Source: Thermoleophilia bacterium
Lineage (GTDB): Bacteria; Actinomycetota; Thermoleophilia; Miltoncostaeales; Miltoncostaeaceae
Assembly: GCA_020848615.1 (NCBI GenBank)
Contig: JADLHW010000016.1
Coordinates: 1 to 32,480, forward strand
DNA length: 32,480 nt
Reading direction: 5' to 3'
Shown here: positions 3,391 through 18,073 of the stretch, piece after piece
Numbering within the stretch: position 1 is the first letter of the stretch
Layout of the letters: every line of letters starts with the position of its first letter
The notes under the pieces: generated by a model
Told to the model about the DNA's origin: nothing
Databases searched by the model: none
What the model saw: the letters and a program-made list of their open reading frames with translations, nothing else
Position numbers and translations under genes: made by a program

Positions 3391-3819
3391 GTGACGACGG
3401 ATCCGGTGTTCTCGATGCCCGTGCCGGGCGGCCTGCTGGGTGCCCAGGCGACGTTCATGCTCATCCTCCTGCTGTGCGCCGCGGCCGTCGCCGGCTGCTG
3501 GGCGTCCACGTACCTGGGCCGCGCCGGCGGTGAGCGCCTGCCCGCCCGGACGGTGGGCGTCGCGGCCCAGTTCGCCATCGTGCTGTGGGCGGCCAACGGG
3601 GCGCTGGGCCTGTCGGGCGCACCCGGGTGGGTGTTCACCGCGCTCGACGTGACCGTCGTCGCCGTGGCGGTGCTCACGGCGGCCATCATCACCATGTCCC
3701 GGCGCGTCACGGGCGATCCCGGGTCCGGCGAGGCCGCTCAGGTGACCGGCGCGCCCCAGACCGGGAACCAGCGCTCCAGCTCCGGCTCGATCGGCAGTTC
3801 CCGCCCCAGCGCCGCCTGA
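3391..3819 (+). CDS. Small membrane protein with three predicted helices, unknown function
   Basis: A 142-residue protein I do not recognise. Three hydrophobic segments are visible at about residues 17-38 (ATFMLILLLCAAAVAG), 54-73 (TVGVAAQFAIVLWAANGALG) and 82-102 (FTALDVTVVAVAVLTAAIIT). A Ser/Gly-rich cytoplasmic or extracellular tail follows. The GTG at 3391 was chosen because GAGGAG (3379-3384) sits 6 nt upstream; an upstream in-frame TTG at 3334 has no such site. The last ~80 bp overlap the 3' end of the convergent pspAB gene, so the tail is antisense to conserved coding sequence. Its place between pspA-pspAA and pspAB-htpX suggests a membrane partner in envelope stress, which is inference. 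Confidence 0.6.
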   Translation: MTTDPVFSMPVPGGLLGAQATFMLILLLCAAAVAGCWASTYLGRAGGERLPARTVGVAAQFAIVLWAANGALGLSGAPGWVFTALDVTVVAVAVLTAAIITMSRRVTGDPGSGEAAQVTGAPQTGNQRSSSGSIGSSRPSAA

Positions 3820-4307
3820 AGGCGGAGCTCGGTGGCCGTGTCGCGCGTGCGGTCGCCGCGCGGCACGAACGGGTAGAACGCCCCCCGCTTGTAGCCGTAC
3901 ACCAGCAGCACCGGCCCGTCGGCGTTCGAGAAGCCGAACACCGAGCACAGCAGCTGCTCCCCGAAGCCCCGCTCCTCCAGGCTGCCGTTCACCAGGTGGA
4001 CGGTGGTGACGAGGTCCGGGAGGTCCTCGTCCTCCAGGACGATCCAGGTGAAGCCCAGGTCGTCCTGACTGCGGCGCATGCGGGTCCCGGAGTCGCGGCC
4101 GGAGATCGCCAGCAGCTCGTCGAGCTCGCGCAGCAGCTCGTCGAACTGACCCATCTGCACCGGCTTGAAGCACACCCCGGCCTTCCCGGAGGGCCGCAGG
4201 CCGAGGTTGACCACCAGCGTCGCCTCCGCGGTGGAGATGGCGAACAGGGCGTCGAGGTCGGGCTTCCGGGGACGCCGCTCGCCGCGGAGGATGTCCAGGA
4301 GCCCCAT
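3738..4307 (-). CDS. pspAB: PspA-associated protein PspAB
   Basis: A 189-residue cytoplasmic protein of the PspAB family. It begins MGLLDILRGERRPRKPDLDALF and contains LGLRPSGKAGVCFKPVQMGQ, LGFTWIVLEDEDLPDLVTTVH, EERGFGEQLLCSVFGF, VYGYKRGAFYPFVP and the ending ELERWFPVWGAPVT, all typical of the family. The ATG lies 4 bp after the htpX stop, so the two are co-transcribed; upstream in-frame codons inside htpX are not needed. The family co-occurs with PspA and HtpX in actinobacteria and archaea. The exact role is unknown, but the linkage implies membrane-protein quality control. The 3' end overlaps the opposing small membrane-protein gene by 82 bp. Confidence 0.88.
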   Translation of the reverse strand: MGLLDILRGERRPRKPDLDALFAISTAEATLVVNLGLRPSGKAGVCFKPVQMGQFDELLRELDELLAISGRDSGTRMRRSQDDLGFTWIVLEDEDLPDLVTTVHLVNGSLEERGFGEQLLCSVFGFSNADGPVLLVYGYKRGAFYPFVPRGDRTRDTATELRLQAALGRELPIEPELERWFPVWGAPVT

Positions 4308-4311
4308 GCGG

Positions 4312-5220
4312 TCAGGCCGCCGCGACCGGGCCGGAGTCGATGTCGGCCTGCATCGCCATGAGCCGCTCGATGCGCTTCTGCACCGGCGGGTGCGTCGCGA
4401 ACAGGCTGGACAGCGAGAAGCCCTTCGCGACCGCGGGCATGATGAAGAAGGCGTTGAGCCCCTCCGCCTCACGCAGGTCCTTGCTGGGGATCCTCGCCAT
4501 GTCGCCGCTGATCTTCACCAGGGCGGAGGCCAGGTTGGCGGGGGCGCCGGTCATGATCGCCGCGCCGCGGTCCGCCGCGTACTCCCGGTAGCGGGACAGG
4601 GCGCGCAGCAGCAGGTACGACACCACGTAGGTCACGATGCTCACCAGGAGCACCGCGAAGAACGCCGCGGCGGCGTTGTCGCGTCCGCGGCCCACCCGGC
4701 CCCACGCGCTCATGCGGATGAGCAGGCCGGCCACCGTCGCGAGGAACGATGCGACGGTCATCACCACGACGTCGCGGTTGGCGACGTGCGACAGCTCGTG
4801 GGCGAGGACGCCCTCCAGCTCGTGCGGCTCCAAATCCCGCATGATCCCGGTGGTCACGCACACCGTGGCGGCCTTGCGGCTGCGGCCCGTCGCGAACGCG
4901 TTCGGCATGTCGGTGGCGGCCACCGCGAGGCGCGGCTTCGGGAGGTCGCTGAGCTGGCACAGCCGGTCGACCATGGCGTGCAGTTGCGGCTCCTCCTCGG
5001 CGGTCACCACGCGGGCCCTCATGCTCGCCAGCGCGAGCTTGTCGCTGAAGAACAGCTGGACCAGCAGGATGATCGCGGCGATCGCCACGACGATCGTCGT
5101 GCCCGCCCCCATGGCGATGACCACGCCCATGAAGACGACGTAGACGAGCCCCAGCAGGAACATGGTGAGACCCATCCGGGCGGTGAGCCCGCGATCGCGG
5201 CCGTACCAGCGCTTCGCCAT
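4312..5220 (-). CDS. htpX: Membrane zinc metalloprotease HtpX
   Basis: A 302-residue M48-family integral-membrane protease that degrades misfolded membrane proteins. Two helices lie at about 16-38 and 41-58. The catalytic zinc motif is HELSH (141-145), with the third ligand in EYAAD (213-217). Two further helices lie at about 152-170 and 183-206. The C-terminal cytoplasmic part contains THPPVQKRIERL (276-287), also family-typical. ATG 5220 fits the family N-terminus (MAKRWYGRDRGL); the frame extends 30 codons further, but that part is not conserved. The -10 TATCAT (5263-5258, minus strand) would give a leader of about 30 nt with GAGGA as ribosome-binding site. pspAB follows by 4 bp. Confidence 0.95.
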   Translation of the reverse strand: MAKRWYGRDRGLTARMGLTMFLLGLVYVVFMGVVIAMGAGTTIVVAIAAIILLVQLFFSDKLALASMRARVVTAEEEPQLHAMVDRLCQLSDLPKPRLAVAATDMPNAFATGRSRKAATVCVTTGIMRDLEPHELEGVLAHELSHVANRDVVVMTVASFLATVAGLLIRMSAWGRVGRGRDNAAAAFFAVLLVSIVTYVVSYLLLRALSRYREYAADRGAAIMTGAPANLASALVKISGDMARIPSKDLREAEGLNAFFIMPAVAKGFSLSSLFATHPPVQKRIERLMAMQADIDSGPVAAA

Positions 5221-5257
5221 CGGATTCCGGTCCTCGTCGGGTGCCGACCCGGCTTCG

Positions 5258-5284
5258 ATGATACGCGCTGCCAGGCGGTAGCCT
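5258..5284. promoter_or_regulatory. Divergent promoters between htpX and the PH-like gene
   Basis: On the minus strand TATCAT (5263-5258) is a good -10 for htpX. On the plus strand TAGCCT (5279-5284) ends 10 nt before the ATG at 5295, so that transcript would have almost no leader. The intergenic gap is only 74 bp, so the promoters nearly overlap. Confidence 0.45.
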
Positions 5285-5294
5285 CCCCGGACCC

Positions 5295-5675
5295 ATGGAA
5301 CGTTTCGCAATGCCCCGGTCGCGGTGGGCCGTCGTCTTCATCGGGCTGCTCGCGCCGCGCGGCGGCGTGGTGGAGCTGGACGGTCGGGAGCTGCGCATCC
5401 GGGTGGGCCTCATGGGCTCCGCCAGCATCCCCGTGGAGCGCATCGCCCGCGTGTCACGCACCGAGTGGCCGGGCTTCGCCGGGCTGGGCGTTCGCATCGG
5501 ACGGGGCCTGGTGGCGTTCGTGCTGCGGTCCGGGTCGTGCGTGGTCATCGAGACCCAGGACGAGGTGAGCGTGCGGGCCCCCCTGCCGTGGAGGACGCGG
5601 AAGATCCTGGTGCGCGTGGAGGACCCGCCGGAGCTCATGGCGGCGATCGCCGACGCGCGCCGCGCGGTCCCGTGA
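5295..5675 (+). CDS. Small PH-like-domain protein, function unknown
   Basis: A 126-residue protein rich in predicted beta strands: VVELDGRELRIRVG, ASIPVERIARVSR, VAFVLRSGSCVVIETQ and ILVRVEDPPELMAAIADARRA. This order of strands followed by a final helix, including the 'D-P-P-E' before the helix, resembles bacterial PH-like domains found in uncharacterised actinobacterial proteins. A weak N-terminal hydrophobic stretch (WAVVFIGLLA) is too short for a confident membrane helix. ATG 5295 and an in-frame ATG at 5310 are both possible. The gene overlaps the next hydrolase gene by 4 bp, forming a two-gene operon. No function can be assigned. Confidence 0.7.
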   Translation: MERFAMPRSRWAVVFIGLLAPRGGVVELDGRELRIRVGLMGSASIPVERIARVSRTEWPGFAGLGVRIGRGLVAFVLRSGSCVVIETQDEVSVRAPLPWRTRKILVRVEDPPELMAAIADARRAVP

Positions 5676-6301
5676 CCACGGCGCCCGTCGTGGAGGTCCC
5701 CACGCCCAGGGGACCGGGGCGCGTGCACCTGCACGTGGCGCCGGACGCCCGGGGGGCGCTGGTGATGGGCCACGGGGCCGGCGGGGGCGTGGGCGCGCCC
5801 GACCTGGTCGCGGCGACGGGCGCCGCCCTCGCCGAGGGCGTGAGCGTGGCGCTGGTGGAGCAGCCCTACCGGGTGGCGGGCCGGCGCGCACCCGACCGGG
5901 CACCGGTGCTGGACGAGGCGTGGACGGCGATCGTCGCGCACCTGCGGGAGGGGCCGCTGAAGGGCCTTTCCCTCGTCACGGGCGGGCGCTCCTCCGGTGC
6001 GCGGGTCGCCTGCCGGACCGCGGCGGCGACCGGTGCCGCCGGGGTGCTGTGCCTCGCCTTCCCGCTGCAGCCCGCCGCCCGTGCCGGGCGCCCGCCGGCC
6101 CCCGGCAGGCTGCCCGAGCTGGACGGCGCCGGGGTGCCCGTGCTGGTGGTCCAGGGGACGCGGGACCCGTTCGGGATGCCGCCCGCGGGCCCGGACCGGC
6201 GGGTCGTGGAGGTCCCGGGGGACCACTCCCTGCGCGCCGGCCTGGCGGGGGTGCGCGAGGCGGTGGCGGCCTGGCTGCCGGGGGTCCTCGGGACCACCTG
6301 A
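5672..6301 (+). CDS. Alpha/beta hydrolase (KANL3/Tex30-like dienelactone-hydrolase fold)
   Basis: A 209-residue predicted cytoplasmic hydrolase. Visible elements are the oxyanion-hole strand VMGHGAGGG (31-39), EQPYRVAGRRAP (63-74), the nucleophile elbow GRSSG (105-109, Ser107), the acid in VLVVQGTRDPFG (Asp165) and the catalytic His in GDHSL (His185). 'E-Q-P-Y-R-V-A-G-R-R-A-P' after the third strand is characteristic of the KANL3/Tex30-like group. The substrate is unknown. The GTG start overlaps the preceding stop (GTGA). A longer in-frame reading (from 5324) lies inside the upstream gene and is rejected. A strong bidirectional hairpin follows. Confidence 0.82.
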   Translation: MTTAPVVEVPTPRGPGRVHLHVAPDARGALVMGHGAGGGVGAPDLVAATGAALAEGVSVALVEQPYRVAGRRAPDRAPVLDEAWTAIVAHLREGPLKGLSLVTGGRSSGARVACRTAAATGAAGVLCLAFPLQPAARAGRPPAPGRLPELDGAGVPVLVVQGTRDPFGMPPAGPDRRVVEVPGDHSLRAGLAGVREAVAAWLPGVLGTT

Positions 6302-6308
6302 CGCGGGT

Positions 6309-6339
6309 GTGTCCCGCGCCGCCGGGCGGCGCGGGACAC
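6309..6339. terminator. Bidirectional hairpin terminator between convergent genes
   Basis: GTGTCCCGCGCC (6309-6320) pairs perfectly with GGCGCGGGACAC (6328-6339) around GCCGGGC. It is 7 nt after the hydrolase stop and 5 nt from the stop of the opposing VOC gene, so it can serve both. Confidence 0.8.
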
Positions 6340-6344
6340 CGGCG

Positions 6345-6701
6345 CTACCCGGCGGTGGGCTCCATCAGCACGACCTGGTTCCCGTCCGGGTCGTAGACGT
6401 CCACCATGCGGGCGCCCCCGAGGTCGTCCACGGACCCCACGACGATGCCGGCGGCCTTCAGGGTCGCGGCGATCTCGTCGATGCCCTCCGCCCGCAGGAC
6501 GACGGTGGCACCGCCGCGCTGGGGGGCGACGGCCAGCTCTCCGGAGAGGGCGAGGTTGATCGCGCCGGCGTCGAACTCCGCCCAGTCGTTGCCCTCGCGG
6601 CGGGCGAGCGGGAGCCCGAGCGTGTCGCGGTAGAAGCTGACCGAACGGTCCATGTTGCACACCTGGTAGAAGACCGTGTCGATCCCAGTGACCTGGCCCA
6701 A
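6345..6701 (-). CDS. VOC-superfamily (glyoxalase/bleomycin-resistance-like) protein
   Basis: A 118-residue single-domain vicinal-oxygen-chelate protein. It has the paired beta-alpha-beta-beta-beta modules: TVFYQVCNMDRSVSFYRDTLGL (9-30), WAEFDAGAINLAL (40-52), TVVLRAEGIDEIAATLKAAG (66-85) and MVDVYDPDGNQVVLMEP (99-115). Glu114 in the last strand fits the usual metal-ligand position. The substrate is unknown. The start is an unusual TTG at 6701, chosen because GGAGG on the coding strand lies 5 nt upstream and a TAGACT -10 (6739-6734) lies 32 nt upstream. The next in-frame ATG would remove the first beta strand. Confidence 0.8.
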   Translation of the reverse strand: MGQVTGIDTVFYQVCNMDRSVSFYRDTLGLPLARREGNDWAEFDAGAINLALSGELAVAPQRGGATVVLRAEGIDEIAATLKAAGIVVGSVDDLGGARMVDVYDPDGNQVVLMEPTAG

Positions 6702-14898: not shown

Positions 14899-14933
14899 CG
14901 TGCCCCGCCGGAATCGCCTCCCGGCGGGGCACG
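14899..14933 (-). terminator. Strong hairpin terminator of the B12-regulated operon
   Basis: CGTGCCCCGCCGG (14899-14911) pairs perfectly with CCGGCGGGGCACG (14921-14933) around a 9-nt loop. It lies 21 nt past the stop of the alpha/alpha-barrel gene and upstream of the phoU promoter, so it separates the two units. Confidence 0.75.
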
Positions 14934-14954: not shown

Positions 14955-15827
14955 TCACCGTGGCGGCAGGGTGCGCCCGGTGAGCGCGACGACCGCGTCC
15001 GTGGTGGCCATCAGCGGGCTGCCCTCGCTGGCCGTCGTGAACCGGATGCGCCCGTCCGCGGCCTGCAGCGACCGCAGGGCGGAACGCAGGCGGGCGGGCA
15101 CCGGTGCCCCGGACGCGCACAGGGCCCGCCACGCCATGGCGGTGGTGTTGCCGTCCGCGGGGCGCCCGCCCCCGGCGCTCGCCACGCCGCCGTCCCGTCC
15201 GCGCTGGGACAGCATCCACGCGCGGGCGGAGGCGACCCACGCCGTGCGCGGGGACACCCCGGCGGCGGCCAGCGCCTCGAGCACGACGGCGGTCGCGTCG
15301 ACCTGGTCGCGGCTCGCCGCCCGCAGGTCGAACCCCCAGCCGCCCGTGCCGCGGGTGCCGCGCAGCGCACGCACGGCGGCGGCCGGCACGGGCCGTCCCG
15401 CGCCGGCCAGGGCCATCATCGAGAAGGCCTGGTCGTAGGCCGTCGCCCCGTAGCGGCCGTCGGCGTAGGCGCGGCGGATGCGGGCGAGGTAGTCCACCCC
15501 GCCGAAGCGGGCCGGGTCGGCGCGCACCGCCAGGGCGGCCAGCGCCACCTTGGCCGACGCCCCGGCGGTGGCGGCGTACGCGGGGCCGCGCCGGCGCAGC
15601 GCGGTGGTGCGGGACGCCAGCGCCGATGCCGGGCGCCCGGCGGCGCGCAGCGCCACGATCGTGTCGGCCAGCTGACCGGGCGGCATCGCCGCGGCGTCCC
15701 TGGACGCGAGCCACGCGGCGGCGCGCCGGCCCGCCGAGATGTCCGCCGGGGTGGCGCAGGTCGCCCCGGCGCCCGCGGCGGGCACGGCGGCGAGCACCGC
15801 CACCGCACCCGCGAGGGCGGCCCTCAT
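14955..15827 (-). CDS. Secreted alpha/alpha-barrel (prenyltransferase/transcobalamin-like) protein
   Basis: A 290-residue exported protein. Signal peptide: MRAALAGAVAVLAAVPAAGA. The mature part consists of repeated helix pairs separated by Gly-rich turns: GRRAAAWLASRD (33-44), GQLADTIVALRAAG (51-64), ASAKVALAALAVR (90-102), YDQAFSMMALAGAG (131-144), GGWGFDLRAASRDQVDATAVV (162-182), ARAWMLSQRGRDGGV (201-215) and NTTAMAWRALCASG (227-240). GGWGFD and RDGGV are the QW/ISOPREN-C2-type turns of terpene-cyclase/prenyltransferase and transcobalamin alpha6-alpha6 barrels. The zinc ligands and DXDD motif of the enzymes are not evident, which favours a binding role. The ATG overlaps the upstream DUF4430 gene's stop (ATGA). 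The pair is under a cobalamin riboswitch, so corrinoid binding is inferred. Confidence 0.75.
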   Translation of the reverse strand: MRAALAGAVAVLAAVPAAGAGATCATPADISAGRRAAAWLASRDAAAMPPGQLADTIVALRAAGRPASALASRTTALRRRGPAYAATAGASAKVALAALAVRADPARFGGVDYLARIRRAYADGRYGATAYDQAFSMMALAGAGRPVPAAAVRALRGTRGTGGWGFDLRAASRDQVDATAVVLEALAAAGVSPRTAWVASARAWMLSQRGRDGGVASAGGGRPADGNTTAMAWRALCASGAPVPARLRSALRSLQAADGRIRFTTASEGSPLMATTDAVVALTGRTLPPR

Positions 15828-16999
15828 CGCGCCCGGCGCGTCCGCGGCGCCGTCACGGTGAACTGGCCGGTGTTGATGCGCGCGATGCCGGTGGACTCCG
15901 CGTTGCCCGCCCCGTCGGTCGCCCGCGACCACACCCGCCACAGCCCCGGGGCGAGGGCGGCCCGCAGCGGCAGGGTCCAGTAGCCGCCGGCCGACCGGGT
16001 GCGCAGCCAGGCGCGCGCCGAGCACGGGCCGGGGGCGGCCAGGCGGCCGGCGGCCGTCATGAACCGGCACTGGGTGCCCACGCGGCGGGCGAGGGCCACC
16101 TCGACCCGCGCGACGTCGGAGCGGTCGGGCCCGGCGACGCCGGTGATGCCCCGCACGCGGGCCACGCGCGAGCCGATGCGCGGGAACGCGATGCGCGAGC
16201 CGGGCGCCACGGTGTCGCCCGCGGCGGCCGCCGCCCCGCCGGTGCCGTCCCCGTACTGCGGTGCGGTGGGCAGGCCGCACACCGATGCGTCGGTGGTGAC
16301 CGCGCACACCTGTCGGGCGGGGCTGCGCACCTCGTCGGTCAGCGTCGCCGACACCGCCTGGGTGCCGGTGCCGGTGGCGGTGAACGTGACGCGTCCGGTG
16401 GCGCCGGCCGTGGCGGTGCGGCCCGCGTACACCACCGTGGCGCCCGCCGCGGGCCGCGAGGTGCCGTCGGTGGCGTGGCTGCTCACCGTCACCTCGAACG
16501 GGTCGCCGGCCTTCACGAGGTCCCCGGACACCGCGAGGTCCAGCTCGCGGGTCGCGAAGTCGCTCACGAACGCCCACACCACACGGTCGCCCGGGAGGAC
16601 GGTGGTGGCGTCCGCGCCGGTGTCGCGGGCGACGTGGTTCACCGTGACCCGCCAGGACGGGGTGAACGACGCGGGCATCGTGTCGGCGCCGATGCGGGTG
16701 ATGAAGCTGGTGGGGCCCGTGCCGAAGTCGAAGACCTGGAAGCCCACCGGCACGGCGGCGGCCGCGGCGGCGCGGCCGAGCTGCCCGGTGGCGCTGTCGG
16801 CGGGCACCGTGATCTGGTCGGTGTCGGCCGGGTCCCTCAGGGTGAACGGCGAGCCCGTGAGCTCCACGGGGGTCTCGGGCAGCAGGGTCGCGCCGGACCC
16901 CTCGACCCGGACGGTGGCGGTGGCGCCGAGGACGGTCGCCGGGACGGCGCCGCAGGCCAGCAGGGACGCGAGCAGGGCCCGCCGGACGGTGTGATGCAT
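15824..16999 (-). CDS. Secreted DUF4430 (transcobalamin C-terminal-like) domain protein with Ig-like domains
   Basis: A 391-residue exported protein. Signal peptide: MHHTVRRALLASLLACGAVPATVLGA. Residues 28-145 fit DUF4430, the beta domain related to the transcobalamin/intrinsic-factor C-terminus: TVRVEGSGATLLPETPVEL, VGFQVFDFGTGPTSFITRIG, then WRVTVNHVARDTGADATTV and LPGDRVVWAF (136-145), the 'W-x-x-x-V-N ... L-x-x-G-D-x-V-x-W' pattern. Residues 150-230 look like an Ig-like fold (VKAGDPFEVTVSS...GATVVYAG...GRVTFTATGTGTQAVSATL), and about 265-385 like a second one ending in WRVWSRATDGAGNAES. There is no LPXTG or membrane anchor. ATG 16999 has AGAGAGG 8 nt upstream; the longer frame runs into the riboswitch and is rejected. 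Confidence 0.78.
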   Translation of the reverse strand: MHHTVRRALLASLLACGAVPATVLGATATVRVEGSGATLLPETPVELTGSPFTLRDPADTDQITVPADSATGQLGRAAAAAAVPVGFQVFDFGTGPTSFITRIGADTMPASFTPSWRVTVNHVARDTGADATTVLPGDRVVWAFVSDFATRELDLAVSGDLVKAGDPFEVTVSSHATDGTSRPAAGATVVYAGRTATAGATGRVTFTATGTGTQAVSATLTDEVRSPARQVCAVTTDASVCGLPTAPQYGDGTGGAAAAAGDTVAPGSRIAFPRIGSRVARVRGITGVAGPDRSDVARVEVALARRVGTQCRFMTAAGRLAAPGPCSARAWLRTRSAGGYWTLPLRAALAPGLWRVWSRATDGAGNAESTGIARINTGQFTVTAPRTRRAR

Positions 17000-17017
17000 G
17001 GATGGAGCCTCTCTGTT

Positions 17018-17045
17018 CCGCGAAGAAGCGTTTGTCTGTTCGCGG
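17018..17045 (-). promoter_or_regulatory. Hairpin between B12 aptamer and start codon (possible expression platform)
   Basis: On the minus strand CCGCGAA (17045-17039) pairs with TTCGCGG (17024-17018) with a 14-nt loop. It sits just after the B12 box and just before the Shine-Dalgarno (complement of 17008-17014). It could be part of the switch's expression platform. Confidence 0.4.
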
Positions 17046-17047
17046 CC

Positions 17048-17200
17048 GGGGCAGGTCTCCTGGCTCCCCGGTCTTCCGCGGTGATCCGCGCCTTCCCAGG
17101 GCCCTCGCCCCAGTGGCCGGCGCCGTGACGCCTGCGGTTCCGCTCCCGGGTCACAGTGGCGGGTCCGCGCCGGATTCACACCGGCTTCCCTCTCGCGCGC
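17048..17200 (-). ncRNA. Cobalamin (B12) riboswitch aptamer
   Basis: Read on the minus strand, this has the conserved core of the cobalamin riboswitch in the right order. GCCGGTGTGAATCCGGC is at 17185-17169, followed at once by a GGACCCGCCACTGTGA segment. A second GCCACTG (17117-17111) and GGGAAGG (17097-17091) follow. The B12 box AGCCAGGAGACCTGCC (17065-17050) comes last. In this class adenosyl- or other cobalamin bound to the leader reduces expression downstream. The next gene on this strand encodes the DUF4430 secreted protein, whose ATG lies about 50 nt past the B12 box. Exact ends are approximate. Confidence 0.95.
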
Positions 17201-17230
17201 CCCGGGGGGCGACCACCGACCGTCCTGGGA

Positions 17231-17236
17231 ACCCTA
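17231..17236 (-). promoter_or_regulatory. -10 (TAGGGT) for the riboswitch operon
   Basis: On the minus strand TAGGGT fits TAnnnT and would start transcription near 17224, about 25 nt before the aptamer. There is no clear -35. Confidence 0.4.
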
Positions 17237-17299: not shown

Positions 17300-18073
17300 G
17301 TGGCCACCCTCGCACCCCCGCGCCCCGTGATGGGCGCGCTCGACCGCATCGGCACCACCCCCGCCCTCACCTGCGCGGCGATCGTGGGGCTCACCCTCGC
17401 CGGGTTCGCGCTGGACCGGATGGTGGACCTGTCCGTGCAGCACCTGCTGGGGTTGTGCTGCTGGGTGTTCCTCATCGGGCTGCTGCGGTACGCGACGTCG
17501 CTGGAGCGCGTGCAGACCCTGGTGGTGGTCGTGGTCGCGACCTTCTTCGAGGTGCTCGGGTCGGTGCTGTGGGGCGTGTACGTGTACCGGCACGGGAACC
17601 TGCCCATGTTCGTGCCGCCCGGCCACGGGATGGTCTACCTGTTCGGCCTGCGCCTCACCCAGACGGGCTTCATGCGGGCCCACCACCGCACCATGGTGCG
17701 CGTCGCCCTGGTCGCCGGGGCGGGCTGGGCCCTGGCCGGGCTCACCGTGCTGGAGCGCACCGATGTGGGCGGGGCGTTCGGGGTGGCGGTGCTGAGCTTC
17801 TTCCTGCTGCGCGGCCGCGTGCCGCACGTCTACGCCGGGGTGTTCTTCTTCGTCGCGTTCCTGGAGCTGTACGGCGTGGCGATGGGCACGTGGGCGTGGA
17901 AGCCGGAGATCCCGTACACCGGCATCCCCAACGGCAACCCCCCGTCCGGGATCGCCTCCGGGTACGTGTACTTCGACATGGCGGCGATCGCCCTCGCCCC
18001 CTTCGTGCTGGAGGCCGTGGGGTGGGCGCGCGGCCTCACGGGCCGCCGTCAGGCCGCGGGGCCGGCCAGGTAG
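17300..18073 (+). CDS. Polytopic membrane protein, function unknown
   Basis: A 257-residue integral-membrane protein with about seven hydrophobic segments. They include ALTCAAIVGLTLAGFAL, LLGLCCWVFLIGLL, TLVVVVVATFFEVLGSVLW, MVRVALVAGAGWALAGL, VYAGVFFFVAFLELYGVAMG and FDMAAIALAPFVLEAV. Conserved-looking loops carry polar motifs: GNLPMFVPPGHGMVYLFGLR and PYTGIPNGNPPSGIASGYVY. Such Pro/Gly/His-rich loops recall a conserved actinobacterial hypothetical family, but I cannot name a function. GTG 17300 was chosen over the longer frame from 17156 because that frame would run through the opposing riboswitch, and a -10 lies just before 17300. The 3' end overlaps the convergent small gene by 25 bp. Confidence 0.75.
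   Translation: MATLAPPRPVMGALDRIGTTPALTCAAIVGLTLAGFALDRMVDLSVQHLLGLCCWVFLIGLLRYATSLERVQTLVVVVVATFFEVLGSVLWGVYVYRHGNLPMFVPPGHGMVYLFGLRLTQTGFMRAHHRTMVRVALVAGAGWALAGLTVLERTDVGGAFGVAVLSFFLLRGRVPHVYAGVFFFVAFLELYGVAMGTWAWKPEIPYTGIPNGNPPSGIASGYVYFDMAAIALAPFVLEAVGWARGLTGRRQAAGPAR

Follow-up and report, generated by a model that had tools for sequence, protein, structure and literature searches.

Could a bacterium hold vitamin B12 outside the cell between two separate proteins, much as animal B12 carriers do with two domains of a single chain? This question is raised by a gene pair on the minus strand of a 32,480-nt stretch of DNA (the window) from a Thermoleophilia genome of the family Miltoncostaeaceae, in which a cobalamin riboswitch is followed by gene 1 (15824-16999), gene 2 (14955-15827) and a hairpin. 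The first-pass annotation had read this arrangement as an operon for two secreted proteins that could clamp a corrinoid in trans. B12 auxotrophy is widespread, and the capture of scarce B12 by bacteria that lack an outer-membrane BtuB is poorly known. The explanation that we regard as probable is that the pair constitutes a putative extracellular corrinoid-capture module feeding an ECF importer of the CbrT type: in relatives, its parts are clustered with or sometimes fused to a B12 importer, and therefore their most likely task is to capture B12 extracellularly and deliver it to that importer.

Layout and conservation of the gene pair

The riboswitch is a complete RF00174 aptamer (17034-17232, minus strand; model positions 1-189) that scores 73.4 bits in cmscan, with a gathering threshold of 31.5 bits (E 1.8e-16), and that contains the B12 box AGCCAGGAGACCTGCC at about 17049-17064. 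It is one of only two cobalamin riboswitches in the 3.6-Mb genome (183 contigs, 96% complete). Genes 1 and 2, which code for 391 and 290 aa, overlap in a stop-start ATGA (CG-ATG-A), and on inspection both encoded N-termini possess a hydrophobic core and an A-x-A-like, plausible signal-peptidase site, so that both proteins are predicted to be secreted. The canonical riboswitch, the two-gene operon with its overlap and the two predicted signal peptides had thus been annotated correctly. The operon had also been described as closed by a 13-bp hairpin, and this stem indeed exists, with 13 perfect base pairs between the arms 14921-14933 and 14899-14911 (minus strand), a loop of 9 nt, a folding energy of -37.8 kcal/mol and a z-score of -4.4. 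However, there is no U-run behind the hairpin, which therefore is not a classical intrinsic terminator, and it is likely to represent a 3' end or a transcript-stabilizing stem.

Relatives of the same family retain this arrangement. Where the context of the locus is uncut, a cobalamin riboswitch lies directly upstream in 16 of 17 cases, which is beyond chance given a background of about two such riboswitches per family genome, and the order riboswitch-gene 1-gene 2 is kept in 15 of the 17, in line with the conservation that the annotation had expected of a functional pair. Exceptions are G010, in which the riboswitch is followed by the barrel gene (gene 2) and a DUF4430 lipoprotein gene, without the secreted DUF4430 protein of gene 1, and G018, in which the barrel gene and a riboswitch-DUF4430 unit are found on separate contigs; from these two genomes it follows that the gene pair is not strictly obligatory. 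An exact-pattern search of genome contigs with gene 2 alone gave no match, whereas a search with the alignment recovered relatives, which are named as MAGs of the Thermoleophilia/Miltoncostaeales. Three public records, two titled Bifidobacterium breve and one Acidobacteria (L050, L054, L055), contain the same Miltoncostaeales-type genes and are probably mislabelled MAGs.

The two encoded proteins

Gene 1 codes for a signal peptide, a DUF4430 domain (about residues 27-150), an Ig-like domain (about 151-240) and a variable C-terminal beta domain. On its own, the protein is a borderline member of DUF4430 (Pfam PF14478), with 22.4 bits and E 1.7e-4 in the protein scan, which is below the curated cut-off of 23.8, and 25.9 bits in the genome search, which is above it. 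The assignment becomes firm through the orthologues, which reach 31-41 bits and in many cases exceed the cut-off, and through a profile-profile comparison with strong DUF4430 lipoproteins that gives 96.8% probability over residues 66-146. The structural model (pLDDT 79) has two Ig-like beta domains, as well as a helix at 70-80 that is followed by strands at 85-91 and 96-103, an order that would suit a transcobalamin-like SLBB domain. According to the orthologue alignment, DUF4430 and one Ig-like domain form the conserved core, while the C-terminal part is swapped between genera. The annotated combination of signal peptide, DUF4430 and Ig-like domains is thereby supported. In a Foldseek search with the whole model, Ig domains dominate and the transcobalamin beta domain is not matched, and profile searches of the PDB with both DUF4430 alignments, including profile A3, gave nothing significant. 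In animal transcobalamins, DUF4430 is found towards the C-terminus (PMC4350170), and it corresponds to the transcobalamin-like SLBB domain of PMC1796856, an equation of names that is made in the present analysis. In the open-licence literature, we found no study on a bacterial function of DUF4430.

Gene 2 was modelled with AlphaFold (19 orthologues) as a 12-helix alpha6/alpha6 barrel, i.e. a toroid, with a pLDDT of 92.7. Foldseek searches of the PDB place terpene cyclases first (8pak, 9e-6), slightly better than transcobalamin, and these are followed by the transcobalamin structure 2v3n (2.7e-4), by 2bb6 and 3kq4, and by the alpha domain of intrinsic factor (2pmv_B, TM 0.62 by target length); transcobalamin and intrinsic factor come ahead of nearly all other toroids. 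The annotation had compared the protein with the alpha half of animal B12 carriers, and this comparison is borne out by the fold but not by sequence profiles, which reach squalene-hopene cyclases (2e-23 to 4e-22) and do not match transcobalamin. Conserved polar positions are over-represented where the six inner helices make their first turns (10 of 24, versus 20 of 90 among all polar positions, p about 0.01), which we take to be the rim where the ligand of transcobalamin sits. A second, distant barrel paralogue with neither a riboswitch nor a DUF4430 gene nearby occurs in one relative (L042, G025:C1, about 2163553-2164215).

The ECF importer and its arrangement across the class

The other cobalamin riboswitch of the genome (G000:C14:7578-7769, 93.8 bits) heads an operon for a DUF4430 lipoprotein (lipobox Cys30), EcfT, EcfA in the form of a double ATPase, and an S component. 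EcfT matches Pfam CbiQ, and the S-component profile (A5) has a single match in the PDB, chain A of 6FNP (E 1.9e-26), which is the CbrT subunit of ECF-CbrT. CbrT transports vitamin B12 (PMC5997447). As this is the sole match, the importer is of the ECF/CbrT type and not a BtuFCD system. BtuFCD would serve the same purpose that is proposed here, namely capture and import of B12, and none is encoded in the pair operon, as had been annotated. FecCD permeases are present elsewhere in the genome (contigs C107 and C49), where neither cobalamin riboswitch is located, and some of them are paired as in siderophore systems; a classical B12 importer among them is conceivable. In a sample of 119 genomes from across the phylum, 50 have related S components. 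Three B12-binding domains are encoded in the genome of the window, and CbiC is lacking, which, as far as one marker family and a 96% complete genome can tell, fits a scavenging and possibly auxotrophic B12 user.

It had been concluded that capture and uptake would be encoded separately in the genome. This is true only within the present family; in G006 (L028) the ECF operon directly precedes the riboswitch of the pair (the two riboswitches are at 1457 and 5471), and elsewhere in the class everything is combined in a single operon. Among 149 genomes of the class, 94 contain the barrel, a count that takes in weak matches to other toroid proteins, 82 contain DUF4430, and 145 contain a cobalamin riboswitch. 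At 55 of the 78 barrel places considered, a DUF4430 gene is encoded on the strand of the barrel, no more than 7 kb upstream or 1.5 kb downstream of it, and at least 71 of 140 DUF4430 matches are preceded by a riboswitch at a distance of up to 2.6 kb. We mapped 20 further regions outside the pair locus, most of which were chosen because both genes shared one contig, and wherever the set is complete, the order is secreted DUF4430 protein, DUF4430 lipoprotein, EcfT, EcfA, S component, barrel.

In 10 of these 20 regions (L070, with the fusion at 5168-6643, L071-L076, L080, L081, L084), the CbrT-like S component and the barrel are encoded in one stop-free frame, and for L070, L072, L073, L074 and L075 Pfam recognizes an ECF S domain as well as toroid domains. 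Another region, L082, has a gene (3605-5578, plus strand) for a single chain of 658 aa with the order DUF4430-Ig-toroid, in which the domains line up with those of genes 1 and 2 read in succession. Together with the split pair, the S-toroid fusions and the single chain of L082 represent a natural series that bears on whether ECF importers can have an extracellular capture stage, and also on the origin of the two-domain B12 carriers of animals. Several of the fusions have a C-terminal transmembrane anchor that ends in RRRLP-like motifs. The single-chain gene of L082 is flanked by a second DUF4430 gene upstream and a weak S-component-like gene downstream. In L078 and L079, the order is secreted DUF4430 protein, toroid (about 597 aa), DUF4430 lipoprotein, S component.

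A putative capture mechanism, its alternatives and known systems

How might such a module work? At low intracellular adenosylcobalamin, the riboswitch would permit expression, and the toroid of gene 2 and the gene 1 protein with its DUF4430 beta-grasp and Ig domains would be exported and clasp cobalamin between them, in the manner of the alpha and beta domains of single-chain transcobalamin and intrinsic factor. The ligand would then be passed to the DUF4430 lipoprotein and/or to the S component encoded behind the second cobalamin riboswitch, with EcfT and EcfA powering the import. Secretion, cobalamin binding, complex formation and hand-over are inferred, and a clamp formed in trans by the two proteins is plausible. 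Alternatively, the partner of the barrel could be the DUF4430 lipoprotein or the S component itself.

The latter thought leads to an alternative that we regard as possible but clearly weaker, in which the barrel works mainly with the lipoprotein and the S component, and the gene 1 protein is an accessory wall anchor or an independent binder. The operon of G010 combines the barrel with the DUF4430 lipoprotein and lacks gene 1, barrels are often fused to S components, nearly all mapped operons of other families encode two DUF4430 proteins, and the gene 1 protein has Ig-like domains and a replaceable C-terminus. On the other hand, genes 1 and 2 are stop-start overlapped in the family loci and lie apart from the ECF operon, and the single chain of L082 mirrors just these two proteins in its domain order. 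Rather unlikely, in our estimate, is a different ligand, i.e. another corrinoid or tetrapyrrole-like compound such as cobinamide or an incomplete corrinoid. Cobalamin riboswitches also govern corrinoid salvage, and B12 importers commonly accept cobinamide; the CbrT-like S component points to cobalamin itself, while nothing speaks specifically against such a ligand.

Two further readings concern the families to which the components belong. As squalene-hopene cyclases and their relatives top both the profile and the fold matches of gene 2, the protein might be a toroid enzyme of the terpene cyclase/prenyltransferase class that has nothing to do with B12 carriage. The DxDD motif of squalene-hopene and type II terpene cyclases is not kept, however: Q-V-D-A is found at its position, none of the 19 orthologues has D377, and L024 and L029 carry Ser in place of D376, so that the barrel does not present itself as an unrelated enzyme with active-site residues. 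Moreover, the large cyclases are about twice as big as this protein, which carries a predicted signal peptide and is under B12 riboswitch control, and relatives of which are fused to ECF S components or DUF4430. On the basis of motif and context, this reading was dropped as very improbable. Marginally less credible still is a system that moves cobalt ions and not corrinoids, for which one could refer to the resemblance of EcfT and EcfA to CbiQ and CbiO, with EcfT indeed matching Pfam CbiQ. This reading was dropped because the S component is CbrT-like, with a B12 transporter as its sole PDB match, and toroid and DUF4430 domains have no known role with free cobalt.

The capture module that we prefer has a forerunner. 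It had been noted that no characterized bacterial system of this form was known, and this holds insofar as we found no experimental study of one in the open-licence literature. The idea itself, however, dates back to Burroughs et al. (2007), who predicted that Gram-positive DUF4430/SLBB and toroid proteins encoded beside CbiO/CbiQ scavenge B12 (PMC1796856). As far as the accessible part of that paper goes, the two systems share the DUF4430/SLBB domain and the alpha/alpha toroid, signal peptides, Ig-like fusions, a second paralogous SLBB protein, an operon with a CbiO-like ATPase and a CbiQ-like protein, and the predicted scavenging of B12. There, toroid and SLBB domain are joined in one chain in either order, whereas here they are two proteins with an operon of their own, and the accessible description includes neither a riboswitch nor a CbrT-type S component nor an S-toroid fusion, all three of which are found here. 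Compared with that part of the paper, the two-chain form, the riboswitch control, the CbrT-like S component, the S-toroid fusions and the class-wide spread in Thermoleophilia are new.

With transcobalamin, intrinsic factor and haptocorrin, the pair shares the alpha6/alpha6 barrel and the DUF4430 beta domain, but the animal carriers unite both domains in one polypeptide with the barrel first, while here there are two genes with DUF4430 first, additional Ig domains and riboswitch control, and B12 binding is putative. ECF-CbrT (PMC5997447, PDB 6FNP) is related through its CbrT subunit, which is homologous to the S component encoded behind the second riboswitch as well as to that of the class-wide operon; what is different here is the dedicated operon with a DUF4430 lipoprotein and an extracellular toroid, which in many relatives is fused to the S component.

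Our judgment is evenly poised on the more far-reaching idea that the ECF transporter has an extracellular binding stage of its own, in which a transcobalamin-like clamp loads cobalamin onto a CbrT-type S component; the clamp would consist of two secreted chains in this genome, while in relatives it is joined to the S component. ECF transporters are generally held to do without extracellular binding proteins and to bind their substrate directly on the S component in the membrane, and a capture stage would therefore be a new uptake architecture and possibly a bacterial relative of the form from which the B12 carriers of animals descend.

Two other protein families were encountered. The fusions of L070 and L075 match the SCO2321 family membrane protein (NCBIfam NF053823) over their toroid part with 89-91 bits, which is far below the 300-bit cut-off of that family; no paper on its function was found in the open-licence literature. 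Divergent from the riboswitch operon lies a gene (17330-18070, plus strand) for a membrane protein of 247 aa that belongs to no Pfam family and is possibly tied to the uptake function. In eight relatives, a homologue (50-83% identity) is encoded next to the pair, and in L028 the homologous gene is located directly 3' of the barrel gene on the same strand.
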